Of a stretch of DNA of 64,000 nt, positions 22,991-44,845 are shown piece by piece. Below the pieces are notes generated by a model, which had not been told where the DNA came from, did not search any database, and was given only the letters and a program-made list of their open reading frames with translations. The stretch comes from Propionispira arboris (GTDB lineage Bacteria; Bacillota; Negativicutes; Selenomonadales; Selenomonadaceae). The stretch's first letter is position 1. Every line of letters starts with the position of its first letter. The stretch spans positions 186,001 through 250,000 of the forward strand of contig NZ_FNZK01000004.1 in NCBI RefSeq assembly GCF_900109225.1. Direction: 5' to 3'. The position numbers and the translations under genes were made by a program.

Positions 22991-23064
22991 GTGTATTTTA
23001 TATTTGGAGAGCTTAATGAAAAGCTATAAATATAATATAACATAAATGAAAATGATTTTCAATA
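22991..23064. repeat. Fur-box module, copy 1 (AT-rich inverted repeat plus Fur-like palindrome)
   Basis: This 74-nt stretch closely matches 39406-39480. The first two thirds form an imperfect inverted repeat (GTGTATTTTATATTT...AGCTT against AAGCT...AAATATAATATAACA). The end holds TGAAAAT-G-ATTTTCA at 23047-23061, a perfect 7-1-7 dyad of the Fur-box type. It also contains TATAAT-like -10 boxes. It lies in the 354-bp spacer before the UbiB-like gene, upstream of a palindromic repeat. Regulation by a Fur-family protein is inferred from the dyad. Confidence 0.65.
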
Positions 23065-23097
23065 TCAAAATTTAAAATATTTTATATTTTTTTGATT

Positions 23098-23277: not shown

Positions 23278-24906
23278 GTGGTGAAATTATTACAAAATTT
23301 TTATTTGTTTAAACGCTTTTTTACGGGAGCTCTTTTAGTTTGGCAAATTATTTTAGGTCGTGCCTGGATTTATTTACAGGGGTTTGGTCATGATAAAACA
23401 TGGATGAATCAAAAATTATTGCAATTTTATGGTGAGATGGCTCATAAATTTCGGCTGACAGCTGTTTCACTTGGTGGACTCTTGATTAAAGTTGGACAGT
23501 TGCTGAGTACAAGGGTGGATATATTCCCGCAAAATGTCTTAGATGAATTATCTTTATTGCAAGATGAAGTACAGTCCGTTCCCTTTGATAATTTGCGAAT
23601 GGTGCTTGAAGATGATTTAAAGGTCAGTGTCAATGATATCTTTGCATCGCTGGAACAAATTCCTTTGGCATCGGCTTCTTTGGGGCAAGTCCATGTCGGA
23701 AAACTCCATACGGGGGAAAAGGTGGCAGTCAAGATTATGCGGCCGGGGATTGAAGCGATTATTCATGTTGATTTTCGTTTAGTTTATCTTATGATGCAGC
23801 TTTGTCGGTTTTTGACAAATTGGTATGATTTGATGGATGTGAATAAGGTATATAGAGAGATCCATGACACAATAGAACGAGAACTGGATTATGTGCAAGA
23901 GGGTGAAAGTGCCGAGCAGATGGCCGCTAGTTTTTCAAAAATACGGCAGATTCGGTTCCCGAAAATTTATTGGCAATATACGGCTAAACATGTACTGATT
24001 ATGGAATTTATGGATGGTATCAAAATTAATGATTATTCGCAAATTGAAGCAGCTGGTTTGGTTCGCACGAAAGTTGCGCAAAAAGTATGGGATGCTTATG
24101 CGAAACAGGTTATTGAAGATGGATTTTTTCATGCAGATCCTCATCCTGGTAATTTAATGGTTGATATAAAAGGAAATATTATCTTTTTGGATTTTGGTAT
24201 GATGGGGCGCGTGAGTGCTAAAAATCGCCGTTTGTTTATTGAGTTTGCCAGTGCCGTAATGCAGGCGGATTATTCTCAGATTGTTCATTGTTTAAAAAAG
24301 ATTGGCTTTTTACTAGCTTGGGCTGATACGGAAATAGTAGCACAAGCGCTTGAAAATTTTTGGGAGGCAATGCTGGCAGATCGTAAACAAGCATCGGATC
24401 GTGAAATGCGGGCTGCTGCCGAACAGCTTCGAAAACTCTTATATGAACAGCCTTTTCAAATTCCTTCAGAGTATACTTTTTTAGGGCGTGCGTTTGGCAT
24501 TTTATATGGTATTTGCCGTGGGTTAGATTCTGATTGGAATCTTTTGGAACAGTTCAAAAAATCTATGCTGAATTTGTCGGAACATGAAGATACAAAGGCT
24601 GAAATTAAAGAACAGGCAATTCGTATCGTTACATCAACAGCCGAAATTCCTACATTGGCAGCGCGGTCACTGCGGCGATGGGAAGAAGATGGGATGCTGG
24701 TTCGTTTTCCCGCACAGCAGATTCGGGAAAACAGTAAAACGGTTGCAAAAGCATTACATATCTTGAGCTGGAGTATTGTTTCAGCAGCATTGTTTGTTGC
24801 TGGTTCATACTTATATGTACAAGGTTTCTTAGGACCAGTGGAAGGTGCATTGGGACTTAGTGTCTTGGCTTTCGGCTATGCTGTGATTTTATTAAAAAAA
24901 GGATAG
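23278..24906 (+). CDS. AarF/ABC1/UbiB-family atypical kinase
   Basis: The 542-residue protein has the UbiB family markers: the KxGQ motif as KVGQLLSTRVDIFP near residue 78, the A-rich loop ASLGQVHVGK near residue 138, the Lys of VAVKIMRPG, DGFFHADPHPGNLMV near residue 280 and IIFLDFGMMGRV near residue 302. Two C-terminal membrane helices occupy about residues 495-540. UbiB-type proteins support biosynthesis or handling of isoprenoid quinones or lipids; here the pathway is unknown. The start is GTG at 23278, weakly supported by ACGGGG; a second GTG follows at once. The spacer upstream carries a Fur-like dyad and a repeat copy. Confidence 0.88.
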   Translation: MVKLLQNFYLFKRFFTGALLVWQIILGRAWIYLQGFGHDKTWMNQKLLQFYGEMAHKFRLTAVSLGGLLIKVGQLLSTRVDIFPQNVLDELSLLQDEVQSVPFDNLRMVLEDDLKVSVNDIFASLEQIPLASASLGQVHVGKLHTGEKVAVKIMRPGIEAIIHVDFRLVYLMMQLCRFLTNWYDLMDVNKVYREIHDTIERELDYVQEGESAEQMAASFSKIRQIRFPKIYWQYTAKHVLIMEFMDGIKINDYSQIEAAGLVRTKVAQKVWDAYAKQVIEDGFFHADPHPGNLMVDIKGNIIFLDFGMMGRVSAKNRRLFIEFASAVMQADYSQIVHCLKKIGFLLAWADTEIVAQALENFWEAMLADRKQASDREMRAAAEQLRKLLYEQPFQIPSEYTFLGRAFGILYGICRGLDSDWNLLEQFKKSMLNLSEHEDTKAEIKEQAIRIVTSTAEIPTLAARSLRRWEEDGMLVRFPAQQIRENSKTVAKALHILSWSIVSAALFVAGSYLYVQGFLGPVEGALGLSVLAFGYAVILLKKG

Positions 24907-37305: not shown

Positions 37306-37323
37306 TTGGTAGGAGGCTTTTTT

Positions 37324-37725
37324 ATGCAATGGAATTGTCATTTTTGTACGACGAAAACAAGACATATCCTCGTGCAAATTTTATTGGGTTTAATTTTAAC
37401 CCTTACTCTAGGTTTGATTTTTGGTTTTTTTGTCATGCTTTTATGGAATCCGATTGTACCCGTTTTATTTGGATTTCATACAATTACGTATTGGCAATCC
37501 GTTGGGCTTGTAATTATGCTGCGTTTACTTTTTGGCGGACATCATAATTATCATAAACAACCAGATCAAGAAGCAGCTCGCTGTAAAACACATTTTAGTA
37601 AATTGATGGAGTCATGCCGCAATACAAATGTGGGTGCATCTCATGTAGATTATGAAACATGGTGGGAAGACGAAGGGAAAATTTCCTTAGAAAAGTATAT
37701 AAAAGATGTTGAAACCAAAAAATGA
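37324..37725 (+). CDS. Membrane protein paired with the ECF sigma factor
   Basis: The 133-residue protein has two hydrophobic helices. It carries the motif LLWNPIVPVLFGFHTITYWQ followed by SVGLVIMLRLLFGGHHNYH, which recalls a widespread family of small membrane proteins found next to ECF sigma factors (pattern LWN-x3-P-x2-FG...WQ-x2-GL...LFGG). The N-terminus has a C-x-x-C pair (CHFC). AGGAGGC precedes the ATG at 37324. It may act as an anti-sigma or a sensor, but no function is proven, and the sequence does not show the usual anti-sigma domains. Confidence 0.6.
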   Translation: MQWNCHFCTTKTRHILVQILLGLILTLTLGLIFGFFVMLLWNPIVPVLFGFHTITYWQSVGLVIMLRLLFGGHHNYHKQPDQEAARCKTHFSKLMESCRNTNVGASHVDYETWWEDEGKISLEKYIKDVETKK

Positions 37726-39406: not shown

Positions 39407-39480
39407 TGTATATTATATTTTAGAGAGGTCGATAAGAAGGTGTAAATATAATATAACACAGATGATAATGATTTTCAATA
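39406..39480. repeat. Fur-box module, copy 2
   Basis: This stretch aligns with 22991-23064 over its whole length. It has an AT-rich inverted repeat (GTGTATATTATATTTTAGAG against GTGTAAATATAATATAACAC) and the Fur-like dyad TGATAAT-G-ATTTTCA at 39463-39477, closer to the Fur consensus than copy 1. TATAAT-like boxes lie just upstream of the dyad. It precedes the glycyl radical enzyme gene by about 120 nt, so iron-dependent control of that gene is plausible. Confidence 0.7.
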
Positions 39481-39600
39481 GTGAACTGAGTATTATTTTA
39501 ACCGATTTTTTTCTTGCAAATAACGAAAGAAAGACTTAAAATAAGATAAAACAATAAACAGTGATAAACAATAATAGCTAAGCATAGTTGGAGGGATAAA

Positions 39601-41955
39601 ATGGAAGCATATGCTGCAAGTGAAAGAGTACTGCGTCTGAAAAATAAAATGCTTGCTGAGCCTCGTTATGCATCGATCGAGCAGGCCCTTATTATCACGC
39701 AGACTTATCAAGAAAACGAACAGGAACCAGTAATTATTAAGCGGGCACTGGCCTTGAAAAATGCTTTGCTGAAAATGGAAATTGGTGTGGATAAAGAAGA
39801 GCTTATTGTCGGGAATCGTACGAAAGGTGTTCGGGCGGGGGTTGTTTTTCCGGAAAGTGGCAGTTCATGGGTTGATCGCGAATTTGAAACATTACCAGTG
39901 CGTCCACAGGATAAATTTTATGTACATGACGAAGATATTTTGTTGTTTCGCCAGCAGGTTAAGCCATACTGGGAGAATCGTTCTTTAGAAGATGTGATTC
40001 GTAAACGTTATGGATCTGAAATCGATGCAATTGCTTCGGTCGTAAAAATCAATCAGAAAGATCATGCACAAGGGCATATCTGTCCGGACTGTAAGACTTG
40101 GCTGCTTACGGGACCGACTGAACTTAAGCGGCAGGCAGAAGTCGAATATGTAAAGACCACGGGGACAAAACAAAATTTTTATCAAAGTGTTATGTTGGTT
40201 ATGGATGGTGTACATGCTTTTATGATGCGCTATCATGATCTTTTACTAACGACAGCAGCACAAACAACAAACGAAGCAGAGCAAGCGAATCTAATTGATG
40301 TAGCGGGGATTTGCCGGAATTTATCCGTATCACCACCAAAGTCATTTCATGAAGCGGTACAGTCTTTATGGTTCTTATTTGTTGTATTACAGATGGAATC
40401 GAATGCATCCTCTTTTTCGCCAGGGCGGGTGGATCAATACTTATATCCTTTTTATAAAGCTGATCTGGATGCCGGAAAGCTTACTCCGGCAAAAGCATTG
40501 GAAATTATTGAATGTCTCTGGCTTAAATTCAATGAAATCGTTTATATGCGAAATGCCCACAGTGCTAAATATTTTGCCGGATTTCCGATTGGTTTTAATA
40601 TAGCGGTTGGCGGACTTGATGAACAAGGGCAGTCAACTGAAAATGAACTTTCTTATTTATTATTGAAAGCACAAGAATTTATCGGTTTACCACAACCCAA
40701 TCTTTCGGTTCGTCTTAATGAAGGCACTTCAACAGAACTTTTGGAGGCGAGTATTCGAGTTGTAGCGAAAGGCAGTGGGATGCCACAGTTTTTCAATGAT
40801 AAATCTATTGTTCCGGGAATTCTAGAGCTAGGCATTGAGCCCGCAGATGCGCTGAATTATGCAATTGTAGGCTGTGTTGAGATTACAACGCAAGGCAATA
40901 ATCTCGGCTGGAGTGATGCCGCTATGTTTAATTTGAATAAGACTTTAGAACTTACCCTAAACCATGGTGTTTGTCTGCTTACCGAAAAACGATTAGGCAA
41001 AGATTTTGGCGGACTCGATACGTATGAAACCTTCGAGCAATTGGAAAATGCTTTTGCCAAACAAATTGATTTCTTTTTGGCTAAGATGATTCAAGCTTGT
41101 GAACAAGTTGAACAAGCACATATGGATATTTTACCATCGCCGTTCTTATCAGCTGTTATCCAGGATTGTATGGAAAAAGGCTTAGATGTGACCAGCGGTG
41201 GGGCTCATTATAATTTATCAGGTATTCAAATGATCCAAGTCGCCAATCTTGCTGATAGTTTGGCCGCCATCAAAAAATTAGTTTATGATGAACAGAAGAT
41301 TACACGTGAAATCTTGTTAAAAGCACTGCAGAATAATTTTATTGGTTATGATATCGTGCGAGCTATGCTATTAAATAAAGTGGATAAATATGGAAATGAT
41401 GTTGCCTGGGTCGATAAAATTGGTGCAAAATGGGCAAGGTATTTTCGAAATCAATTGCAAGTCTATACGAATTATCGTGGTGGTAAATATCATACCGGTA
41501 TGTATACAGTTTCAGCGCATGTTCCGATGGGAGAAAATGTGGGTGCTTCACCGGATGGACGTTATGCTGGTACACCGCTTGCTGATGGTGGTATGTCACC
41601 GGTTTATGGGCGTGATAGTAAGGGGCCGACGGCAGTACTTAAGTCGGTGGCAGAGTTGGATAATAATCTTACGACGAATGGCGGACTTTTGAATATGAAA
41701 TTTCTGCCGGACTTTTTCGCTACCGAAACTGGAATTCATAAATTTGCAGCGTTTTTACGAGCGTTTGTTGATTTGGAAATTCCGCATATTCAATTCAACG
41801 TTTTAAATCGAGAGGATTTATTAGCCGCACAAGCGAATCCTGAAAACTATCGAAGCTTAACCGTGCGTGTTGCAGGCTATACAGCATATTTCACTGAACT
41901 GGATGGGAAACTGCAGGATGAAATTATTGCGCGTACTTCTTATGATGCGATTTGA
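39601..41955 (+). CDS. Glycyl radical enzyme of the PFL2/dehydratase-like group, substrate unknown
   Basis: The 784-residue protein has both hallmarks of the family: a Cys-x-Glu active site (Cys425 and Glu427 in IVGCVEITTQGN) and the glycyl radical Gly759 in RVAGYTAYF. Asp439 corresponds to a conserved Asp of glycerol dehydratase. True pyruvate formate-lyase has two adjacent Cys instead. The usual ESNGHS-x-SPGR segment reads ESNASSFSPGR (residues 266-276), so the catalytic His of glycerol dehydratase is Ser270. Near residue 158, GHICPDC has an unusual Cys pair. GGAGGG lies before the ATG. No activating radical-SAM enzyme is adjacent. The aldolase-like gene follows, as near E. coli ybiW. Confidence 0.85.
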   Translation: MEAYAASERVLRLKNKMLAEPRYASIEQALIITQTYQENEQEPVIIKRALALKNALLKMEIGVDKEELIVGNRTKGVRAGVVFPESGSSWVDREFETLPVRPQDKFYVHDEDILLFRQQVKPYWENRSLEDVIRKRYGSEIDAIASVVKINQKDHAQGHICPDCKTWLLTGPTELKRQAEVEYVKTTGTKQNFYQSVMLVMDGVHAFMMRYHDLLLTTAAQTTNEAEQANLIDVAGICRNLSVSPPKSFHEAVQSLWFLFVVLQMESNASSFSPGRVDQYLYPFYKADLDAGKLTPAKALEIIECLWLKFNEIVYMRNAHSAKYFAGFPIGFNIAVGGLDEQGQSTENELSYLLLKAQEFIGLPQPNLSVRLNEGTSTELLEASIRVVAKGSGMPQFFNDKSIVPGILELGIEPADALNYAIVGCVEITTQGNNLGWSDAAMFNLNKTLELTLNHGVCLLTEKRLGKDFGGLDTYETFEQLENAFAKQIDFFLAKMIQACEQVEQAHMDILPSPFLSAVIQDCMEKGLDVTSGGAHYNLSGIQMIQVANLADSLAAIKKLVYDEQKITREILLKALQNNFIGYDIVRAMLLNKVDKYGNDVAWVDKIGAKWARYFRNQLQVYTNYRGGKYHTGMYTVSAHVPMGENVGASPDGRYAGTPLADGGMSPVYGRDSKGPTAVLKSVAELDNNLTTNGGLLNMKFLPDFFATETGIHKFAAFLRAFVDLEIPHIQFNVLNREDLLAAQANPENYRSLTVRVAGYTAYFTELDGKLQDEIIARTSYDAI

Positions 41956-42069
41956 CATATTTATGAAAATTTTCTTGCAAACTTTGACTTTTACAGGTAA
42001 TGTAATAATGAGTGATAAAAAACAATAAAAATAACAAAAGTGTTAGAAAACTATAGGAGTGTTGTTTAC

Positions 42070-42750
42070 ATGTTAGTATTAATCGATCACGCAGATGTTG
42101 AGGAAATCAAAGCTTTATATGATGAATATCCATATGATGGAGTAACGACGAATCCCTCTATTTTAAAAAAAGTCGGTAAAAATCCGATGCAGGTTTTAAA
42201 AGAAATTCGCCGGGTAATTCCGCAGCAGGCAGATTTGCATGTACAATTGGTGTCTTTGAAAAAAGAAACTATGTTAAAAGAGGCGCAGCATATTTGGGAT
42301 GAATTAGGCAAAGGCACTTATGTGAAAGTTCCAGTAACAGCAGAGGGATTCAAAGCAATCGCAGCTATGCATGCAAAAGGCATTACAAATATTACTGCGA
42401 CAGCAATTTATACTGCGATGCAGGCGTTTATGGCGGCAAAAGCCGGGGCACGCTATACAGCACCTTATGTAAATCGCATTGATAACCTTGGTGCGAATGG
42501 AATTGAGACCGCTAAAGTAATTCATTCGATGTTTCGTCTGCATAATCTTCAAGCGGATGTTTTAGCCGCCAGTTTCAAAAATTCTCAGCAGGTCTTAGAA
42601 CTTTGCAAAGCAGGGATTGGTTCGATAACAGCGGCTCCTGATGTACTTCGTTCTCTCGTACAGCATGACTCTACAACAAATGCTGTGGGTGTATTTACGA
42701 CTGACTTTTATTCATTATTGGGTGAAGGAAAAACAATGGCGGATTGTTAA
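42070..42750 (+). CDS. Transaldolase-family protein, fructose-6-phosphate aldolase type
   Basis: The 226-residue protein is a short transaldolase-family barrel of the FSA/TalC type. It has YDGVTTNPSILKKVG near residue 24, the Schiff-base Lys in YVKVPVTAEGFKAI near residue 83, ITATAIYTAMQAFMAAKAGA near residue 108 and YVNRIDNLG. Such enzymes cleave or form fructose 6-phosphate from dihydroxyacetone and glyceraldehyde 3-phosphate, or act as small transaldolases. TAGGAGTG precedes the ATG at 42070. It follows the glycyl radical enzyme by 114 nt, an arrangement also seen around E. coli ybiW-ybiY-fsaA, but here the activase gene is missing. Confidence 0.88.
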   Translation: MLVLIDHADVEEIKALYDEYPYDGVTTNPSILKKVGKNPMQVLKEIRRVIPQQADLHVQLVSLKKETMLKEAQHIWDELGKGTYVKVPVTAEGFKAIAAMHAKGITNITATAIYTAMQAFMAAKAGARYTAPYVNRIDNLGANGIETAKVIHSMFRLHNLQADVLAASFKNSQQVLELCKAGIGSITAAPDVLRSLVQHDSTTNAVGVFTTDFYSLLGEGKTMADC

Positions 42751-42799: not shown

Positions 42800-42842
42800 G
42801 AAGTACTACAAAATCGAAATGATTTTGTAGTACTTCTTTTTG
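42800..42842 (+). terminator. Terminator after the aldolase-type gene
   Basis: GAAGTACTACAAAATC and GATTTTGTAGTACTTC form a perfect 16-bp stem with a GAAAT loop and a T tail. Confidence 0.92.
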
Positions 42843-44278: not shown

Positions 44279-44416
44279 GTAGATTGGAGACAGTTTTGGC
44301 TTTAGAAAGAGAAATGTTTTTGAATTAAAATGCAATTCCTAGAAAAGAAGATTATACTACTATATAAAGAGCAGAAAGTTGTATTGATACAAATCAAAAT
44401 AAGGGTGGTATGTTCT

Positions 44417-44845
44417 ATGAAATTGCGACGAATTTTAGCTATGGCGGCTATTTTAATGGTTTTGTCTGTTGGTAGTGTTTTTGCCATGCAGGCACAGTGC
44501 GATGGCAAACCTTTTATCAAAATCGAAAATGCGAACGGGGCTATAATGAGTGTTGCACCAAAAGTTAGTTATTCAGAATTAAACGGTCAGAAGACAATTG
44601 AATTTTTAGCTTCAATAGAGGTGGAGAAAGACAATCGATTTATATATTCGCATATCGTAGCGATTCCAGAAGAAATGAAATTTCGCTTTATAGAGGTTAC
44701 GACAATTGACACGAAAAGCAAAAAAGCTATTGCTCAGCAAAAAAATCTAGATTGGGTAGTCTATACTAAAGATACATCGGTTGATAAATGTTTAAGCTAT
44801 ATTAATAAACATCCAGATCAATTTCAAAAAATTGAGAGTAAATAA
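44417..44845 (+). CDS. Secreted protein of unknown function
   Basis: The 142-residue product begins with a signal peptide (KLRRILAMAAILMVLSVGSVFA, probable cleavage after residue 23). A small mostly beta domain follows with two Cys residues (QAQCDGKPF and DKCLSYINK) that could pair. I recognise no family. AAGGGTGG precedes the ATG at 44417; a longer frame from 44330 has no ribosome site and would hide the signal peptide. It is flanked by terminators and is probably transcribed alone. Confidence 0.65.
   Translation: MKLRRILAMAAILMVLSVGSVFAMQAQCDGKPFIKIENANGAIMSVAPKVSYSELNGQKTIEFLASIEVEKDNRFIYSHIVAIPEEMKFRFIEVTTIDTKSKKAIAQQKNLDWVVYTKDTSVDKCLSYINKHPDQFQKIESK

Follow-up and report, generated by a model that had tools for sequence, protein, structure and literature searches.

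The glycyl radical enzyme (GRE) encoded in the window, the stretch of 64,000 nucleotides of the Propionispira arboris genome that was analyzed, is probably an oxygen-sensitive, PflD-like lyase that opens the ring of an anhydrohexitol-6-phosphate, and its operon has been split in Propionispira. Sequence comparison suggests that the enzyme would work like PflD, but it may not be a PflD itself. By analogy, 1,5-anhydromannitol-6-phosphate (AM6P) is the most likely substrate.

The glycyl radical enzyme and its aldolase neighbor

The GRE gene is followed by an aldolase gene and a potential terminator:

39601-41955, plus strand: GRE of a PflD-like clade, 784 amino acids (intact open reading frame, Pfam, alignment, tree, structure model)
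42070-42750, plus strand: fructose-6-phosphate-aldolase-like (FSA-type) gene, 226 amino acids (Pfam TAL_FSA, 166 bits; start at ATG 42070)
42800-42836, plus strand: strong terminator-like hairpin of 17 pairs with a T tail, 3' of the aldolase gene

The protein is identified as a GRE by both Pfam domains (PFL-like, 662.7 bits; Gly_radical, 103.4 bits), the Cys of the active-site loop, and the RVxGY glycyl radical loop. The alignment places the characteristic residues at Cys425, Glu427, Asp439, Gly759, and Ser270, the latter within an ESNASS segment, and a GHICPDC segment at 158-164, exactly as the first-pass annotation had read them. Its assignment to the dehydratase-type GREs is likewise supported; the score of 785.1 bits against TIGR01774 (PFL2/glycerol-dehydratase subfamily) exceeds the curated cut-off of 678.2. 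The protein is 98% identical to the GRE of P. raffinosivorans DSM 20765.

The next gene had rightly been recognized as FSA-type, and only its start had to be moved, from GTG 42040 of the open reading frame list to ATG 42070. The latter is preferred because an AGGAG is located about 12 bases upstream and the N-terminus then matches that of FsaA. The active-site segments TTNPS, KVPVT, APYVNRID, and LAASFK are conserved with FsaA and FsaB. Two additional open reading frames near the GRE locus, at 37306-37725 (139 amino acids) and 44330-44845 (171 amino acids), have no Pfam match.

A sister clade of PflD

In Escherichia coli, PflD, the FrwBC phosphotransferase system (PTS), the activase PflC, and FsaB constitute an AM6P lyase system, and the same logic of GRE, activase, and FSA is found in YbiW/YbiY/FsaA, the lyase system for 1,5-anhydroglucitol-6-phosphate (AG6P). 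According to a review (PMC12441222) that refers to Ma et al. (JACS 2024), PflD and YbiW cleave AM6P and AG6P to 1-deoxyfructose-6-phosphate after PTS uptake.

Among solved proteins, 8YJO, which is E. coli PflD, and 8ID0 come nearest to the window GRE in sequence, and these are again the top two in a fold search with its AlphaFold model (pLDDT 81; below 50 at the glycyl radical loop, 757-760, and at 325-329 and 636-665). 8ID0 is described as a Streptococcus PflD with bound AM6P, and 8ID7 as YbiW with AG6P. The window GRE is 44% identical to E. coli PflD, 42% to 8ID0, 37% to glycerol dehydratase, and 34% to YbiW. The E. coli system it resembles most is pflD/fsaB instead of ybiW/fsaA, to which it had been likened before. 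YbiW carries ESNGHS, lacks an Asp at position 439, and falls into a different clade; in the alignment and the tree, the window GRE has no ESNGHS pocket and is not a member of the YbiW clade.

In the tree, the two solved PflD proteins form a clade from which the window GRE is separate; it belongs to a sister group (support 100/100 for the PflD pair, 100/99 for the window clade). The members of this clade are from Firmicutes and spirochaetes and are about 60-70% identical. In contrast, the Streptococcus dysgalactiae protein (8ID0), which shares ESNASS, GCVE, and the overall fold with the window GRE, sits in the E. coli PflD clade and has the PflD pocket segments. Against PRK09983, the NCBI equivalog model for PflD, the window GRE scores 785.8 bits, below the curated cut-off of 1109, while E. 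coli PflD scores 1724.8 bits.

The active-site neighbors had been regarded as atypical. Both solved PflD proteins and the aligned clade members have exactly the same ESNASS segment, so that the exchange at Ser270 is a PflD-type signature. It was therefore rejected as a mark of a novel substrate. The segments GCVE, SA-[KR]-x-FAGFP, YTVSAH, and RVAGY, as well as the FSA-type aldolase partner, are also shared with E. coli PflD. However, neither PflD protein has the segments GHI-C-P-[DN]-[CV], FPIGFN, QGNNLGWSD, and NLSGIQMIQ, which hardly vary among 58 clade members; E. coli PflD has GHIIIDY in place of GHICPDC, PGRTYGLHD in place of QGNNLGWSD, and NFSGVQGIG in place of NLSGIQMIQ. According to the glycerol dehydratase alignment these segments would line the pocket, and thus the exact substrate may differ from that of PflD.

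Gene neighborhoods and the choice of substrate

The common neighborhood in public relatives comprises a DeoR gene, a Frw-type PTS, the GRE, an activase, and an FSA gene, and it resembles the E. coli PflD system in the Frw-type PTS and the adjacent activase. A DeoR regulator in the operon distinguishes the clade from E. coli PflD. The IIC proteins of these operons are 47-53% identical to E. coli FrwC, as close as they are to each other, whereas other fructose-type PTS reach 32-45%. In P. arboris, an FSA-type gene adjoins the GRE, but the activase is not adjacent, and the Frw-type PTS of many relatives was not found in searches with FrwC and the PTS_EIIC family; the best IIC, at 38-45%, is of the general fructose type only.

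In five of the examined genomes, a YbiW-type GRE and the clade GRE are no more than 20 kb apart. Housekeeping genes lie between the two in three Anaerostipes genomes. In the other two genomes, both GREs are part of a compact cluster (L201 and L203), in which either GRE has an activase of its own and a DeoR gene is present. Instead of a PTS, L201 includes genes for an ABC-type sugar transporter and a ROK-like kinase; the neighboring genes at these loci were named by reading the sequences rather than by a family search. Among 35 genomes with a clade GRE, none carried another GRE that is closer to PflD, which would be consistent with replacement. The P. arboris genome itself contains a YbiW-type GRE with an adjoining DeoR gene and activase (contig C14, L020:7058-9469), a candidate AG6P lyase.

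Taken together, the Frw-type PTS in relatives, the clustering with YbiW-type GREs, and the lack of a close PflD favor AM6P or a near relative. Counting against AM6P are the identity of 44% to PflD, the score below the equivalog cut-off, the sister clade, the pocket differences, and the Frw-type PTS that was not found. It is conceivable, but rather unlikely, that the same operon logic and radical chemistry serve another phosphorylated substrate, e.g., an anhydroalditol, a deoxy-sugar, or a polyol phosphate, which is read by the clade-specific pocket. The near invariance of the pocket segments and the PRK09983 score would fit such a substrate, but ESNASS, the FSA neighbor, and the Frw-type PTS are all common to PflD, and clade GREs cluster with YbiW-type GREs. 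Another possibility that we regard as rather improbable is that this clade of Firmicutes and spirochaetes makes up an isofunctional family of its own, whose sugar-phosphate glycyl radical lyases act on neither AM6P nor AG6P, and that its system is encoded in Propionispira at two unlinked loci under one DeoR repressor. Ring opening of an anhydrohexitol-6-phosphate is thus the preferred reading.

The activase gene is located elsewhere in the genome

It had been noted that no activase gene adjoins the GRE, and a loss had been suggested. The absence was confirmed by a scan of the genome, which revealed three GREs, on contigs C14, C21, and C23 (the contig of the window), as well as three good GRE activases; these are on C14, C21, and C28, and C23 has none. 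The C14 activase is YbiY-like and adjoins the C14 GRE, the C21 activase adjoins a pyruvate formate-lyase, and the C28 activase is solitary. Loss can therefore be rejected, because the solitary gene (C28:75265-76173), which is followed by a DeoR gene, encodes the activase typical of the clade. It scores 293 bits against TIGR02494 (cut-off 174.35), its CxxxCxxC radical-SAM motif is intact, and it is 100% identical in the second Propionispira genome, that of P. raffinosivorans.

An orthologue of this activase lies directly 3' of the GRE in 55 of 57 public clade loci, in agreement with the earlier statement that such genes are nearly always adjacent. The two exceptions are P. raffinosivorans and a divergent Chloroflexi locus (L078), which has a YbiY-like activase upstream. 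Examination of 121 genomes of the family revealed that clade GRE and clade activase co-occur in 15 of 15 genomes; they adjoin each other in all 13 that are not from Propionispira and are separated in the two Propionispira genomes. The trees of the two proteins match: the window GRE is the sister of the GREs of genomes G053 and G066 (98/96), and the C28 activase is the sister of the activases of G053, G066, G034, and G075 (100/99), the same sister lineage. In many clade operons, a relative of the DeoR gene behind the C28 activase is located next to the GRE; the DeoR tree does not place the C28 gene itself.

Propionispira therefore has a split operon rather than a lost activase, and the C28 enzyme would be the partner of the window GRE. 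An assembly error is unlikely to account for the missing neighbor, because the second Propionispira genome shows the same split. It is very improbable that the GRE is a true orphan, which is either inactive or activated by the YbiY-like C14 or the PFL-type C21 enzyme. While neither Propionispira genome has an adjoining activase, the intact and fully conserved activase at C28 speaks against this view, as do the catalytic residues of the GRE, all of which are intact, and its conservation between the two genomes.

Two additional loci were observed in the family. Beyond the 15 genomes, G026 has no more than a degenerate relative, a divergent clade GRE (L094, C1:219452-221641; 49%). It lacks Glu427, Asp439, and the glycyl radical loop, and its C-terminus reads like a piece of an activase, so that it is apparently a decaying relic of a GRE-activase fusion. 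P. raffinosivorans has an extra GRE with activase (G024:C3:208619-212854), which was not found in the genome of the window.

Putative regulatory elements

Several candidate elements precede the two genes of the window:

39464-39482, no strand assigned: Fur-like dyad, 15/19 matches to the Fur consensus, candidate
39514-39542, plus strand: promoter-like TTGCAA-17-TAAAAT before the GRE gene (consensus scan, not above shuffle background)
39549-39574, plus strand: two AAACAATAA repeats (copies at 39549 and 39566), proposed DeoR-type operator, immediately 3' of the putative -10 box of the GRE gene
42020-42028, plus strand: AAACAATAA repeat, proposed DeoR-type operator, upstream of the aldolase gene

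A variant AAACAAT-type repeat is found at C28 75218-75242, about 23 bases before the activase gene. Among 7-mers, AAACAAT and AACAATA show the strongest enrichment upstream of the GRE genes of relatives, with occurrences in 26 of 48 (5.1 expected) and 25 of 48 (4.5 expected) cases, respectively. A genome-wide search with the operator pattern returned eight places, including those at the GRE gene and at the C28 activase gene, compared to three for the reversed control pattern. We propose that DeoR binds to these repeats at the GRE, aldolase, and activase genes.

The Fur-like dyad that had been proposed upstream of the GRE is indeed present, but its score barely exceeds chance: a shuffled sequence of 64 kb would be expected to contain about one site that scores at least as well. 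The case for Fur control of the GRE gene is thus marginal. The best match to the Fur box in the whole stretch is at 23048-23066 (16/19), upstream of a gene for an ABC1-type atypical kinase (23278-24906).

Proposed function

Alongside the observed family, clade, synteny, co-occurrence, matching trees, and shared motif, we infer substrate, chemistry, regulation, and the partnership of the two loci as follows. A dedicated radical-SAM activase would install a radical at Gly759, which would be relayed to Cys425. Cys425 would then abstract a hydrogen from the substrate, and Glu427 would assist in cleavage of the C-O bond. In this way, a phosphorylated 1,5-anhydrohexitol would undergo ring opening, most likely with conversion of AM6P to 1-deoxyfructose-6-phosphate. 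The neighboring FSA-type aldolase would split this product into glyceraldehyde-3-phosphate and hydroxyacetone, as FsaA or FsaB reportedly does. The ancestral operon would have been divided into GRE and aldolase on C23 and activase and DeoR regulator from C28:75265 onward, both halves having the proposed DeoR operator in common.

That the protein is a glycerol or 1,2-propanediol dehydratase whose pocket has changed can practically be dismissed: 1R8W and 5I2G have the same fold (TM about 0.87) and share Cys-x-Glu, Asp, and the Gly radical loop, but the pocket residue His281 in the ESNGHS segment of glycerol dehydratase (1R8W) corresponds to Ser270, the tree places that enzyme (37% identity) outside of the PflD and window clades, and the gene context, with sugar PTS and FSA, is one of sugar phosphates.

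Biological meaning

The finding is ordinary in kind, and what is worth keeping is a large sister clade of PflD with a pocket of its own and a genus-specific operon split, which explains the apparent orphan GRE. The absence of a neighboring activase need not mean its loss, since the parts of a split GRE operon can retain the proposed operator in common. What looked like an orphan radical enzyme has thereby become a testable enzyme-activase pair, and it points to a large, conserved clade of Firmicutes and spirochaetes next to PflD, the substrate of which is directly assayable.
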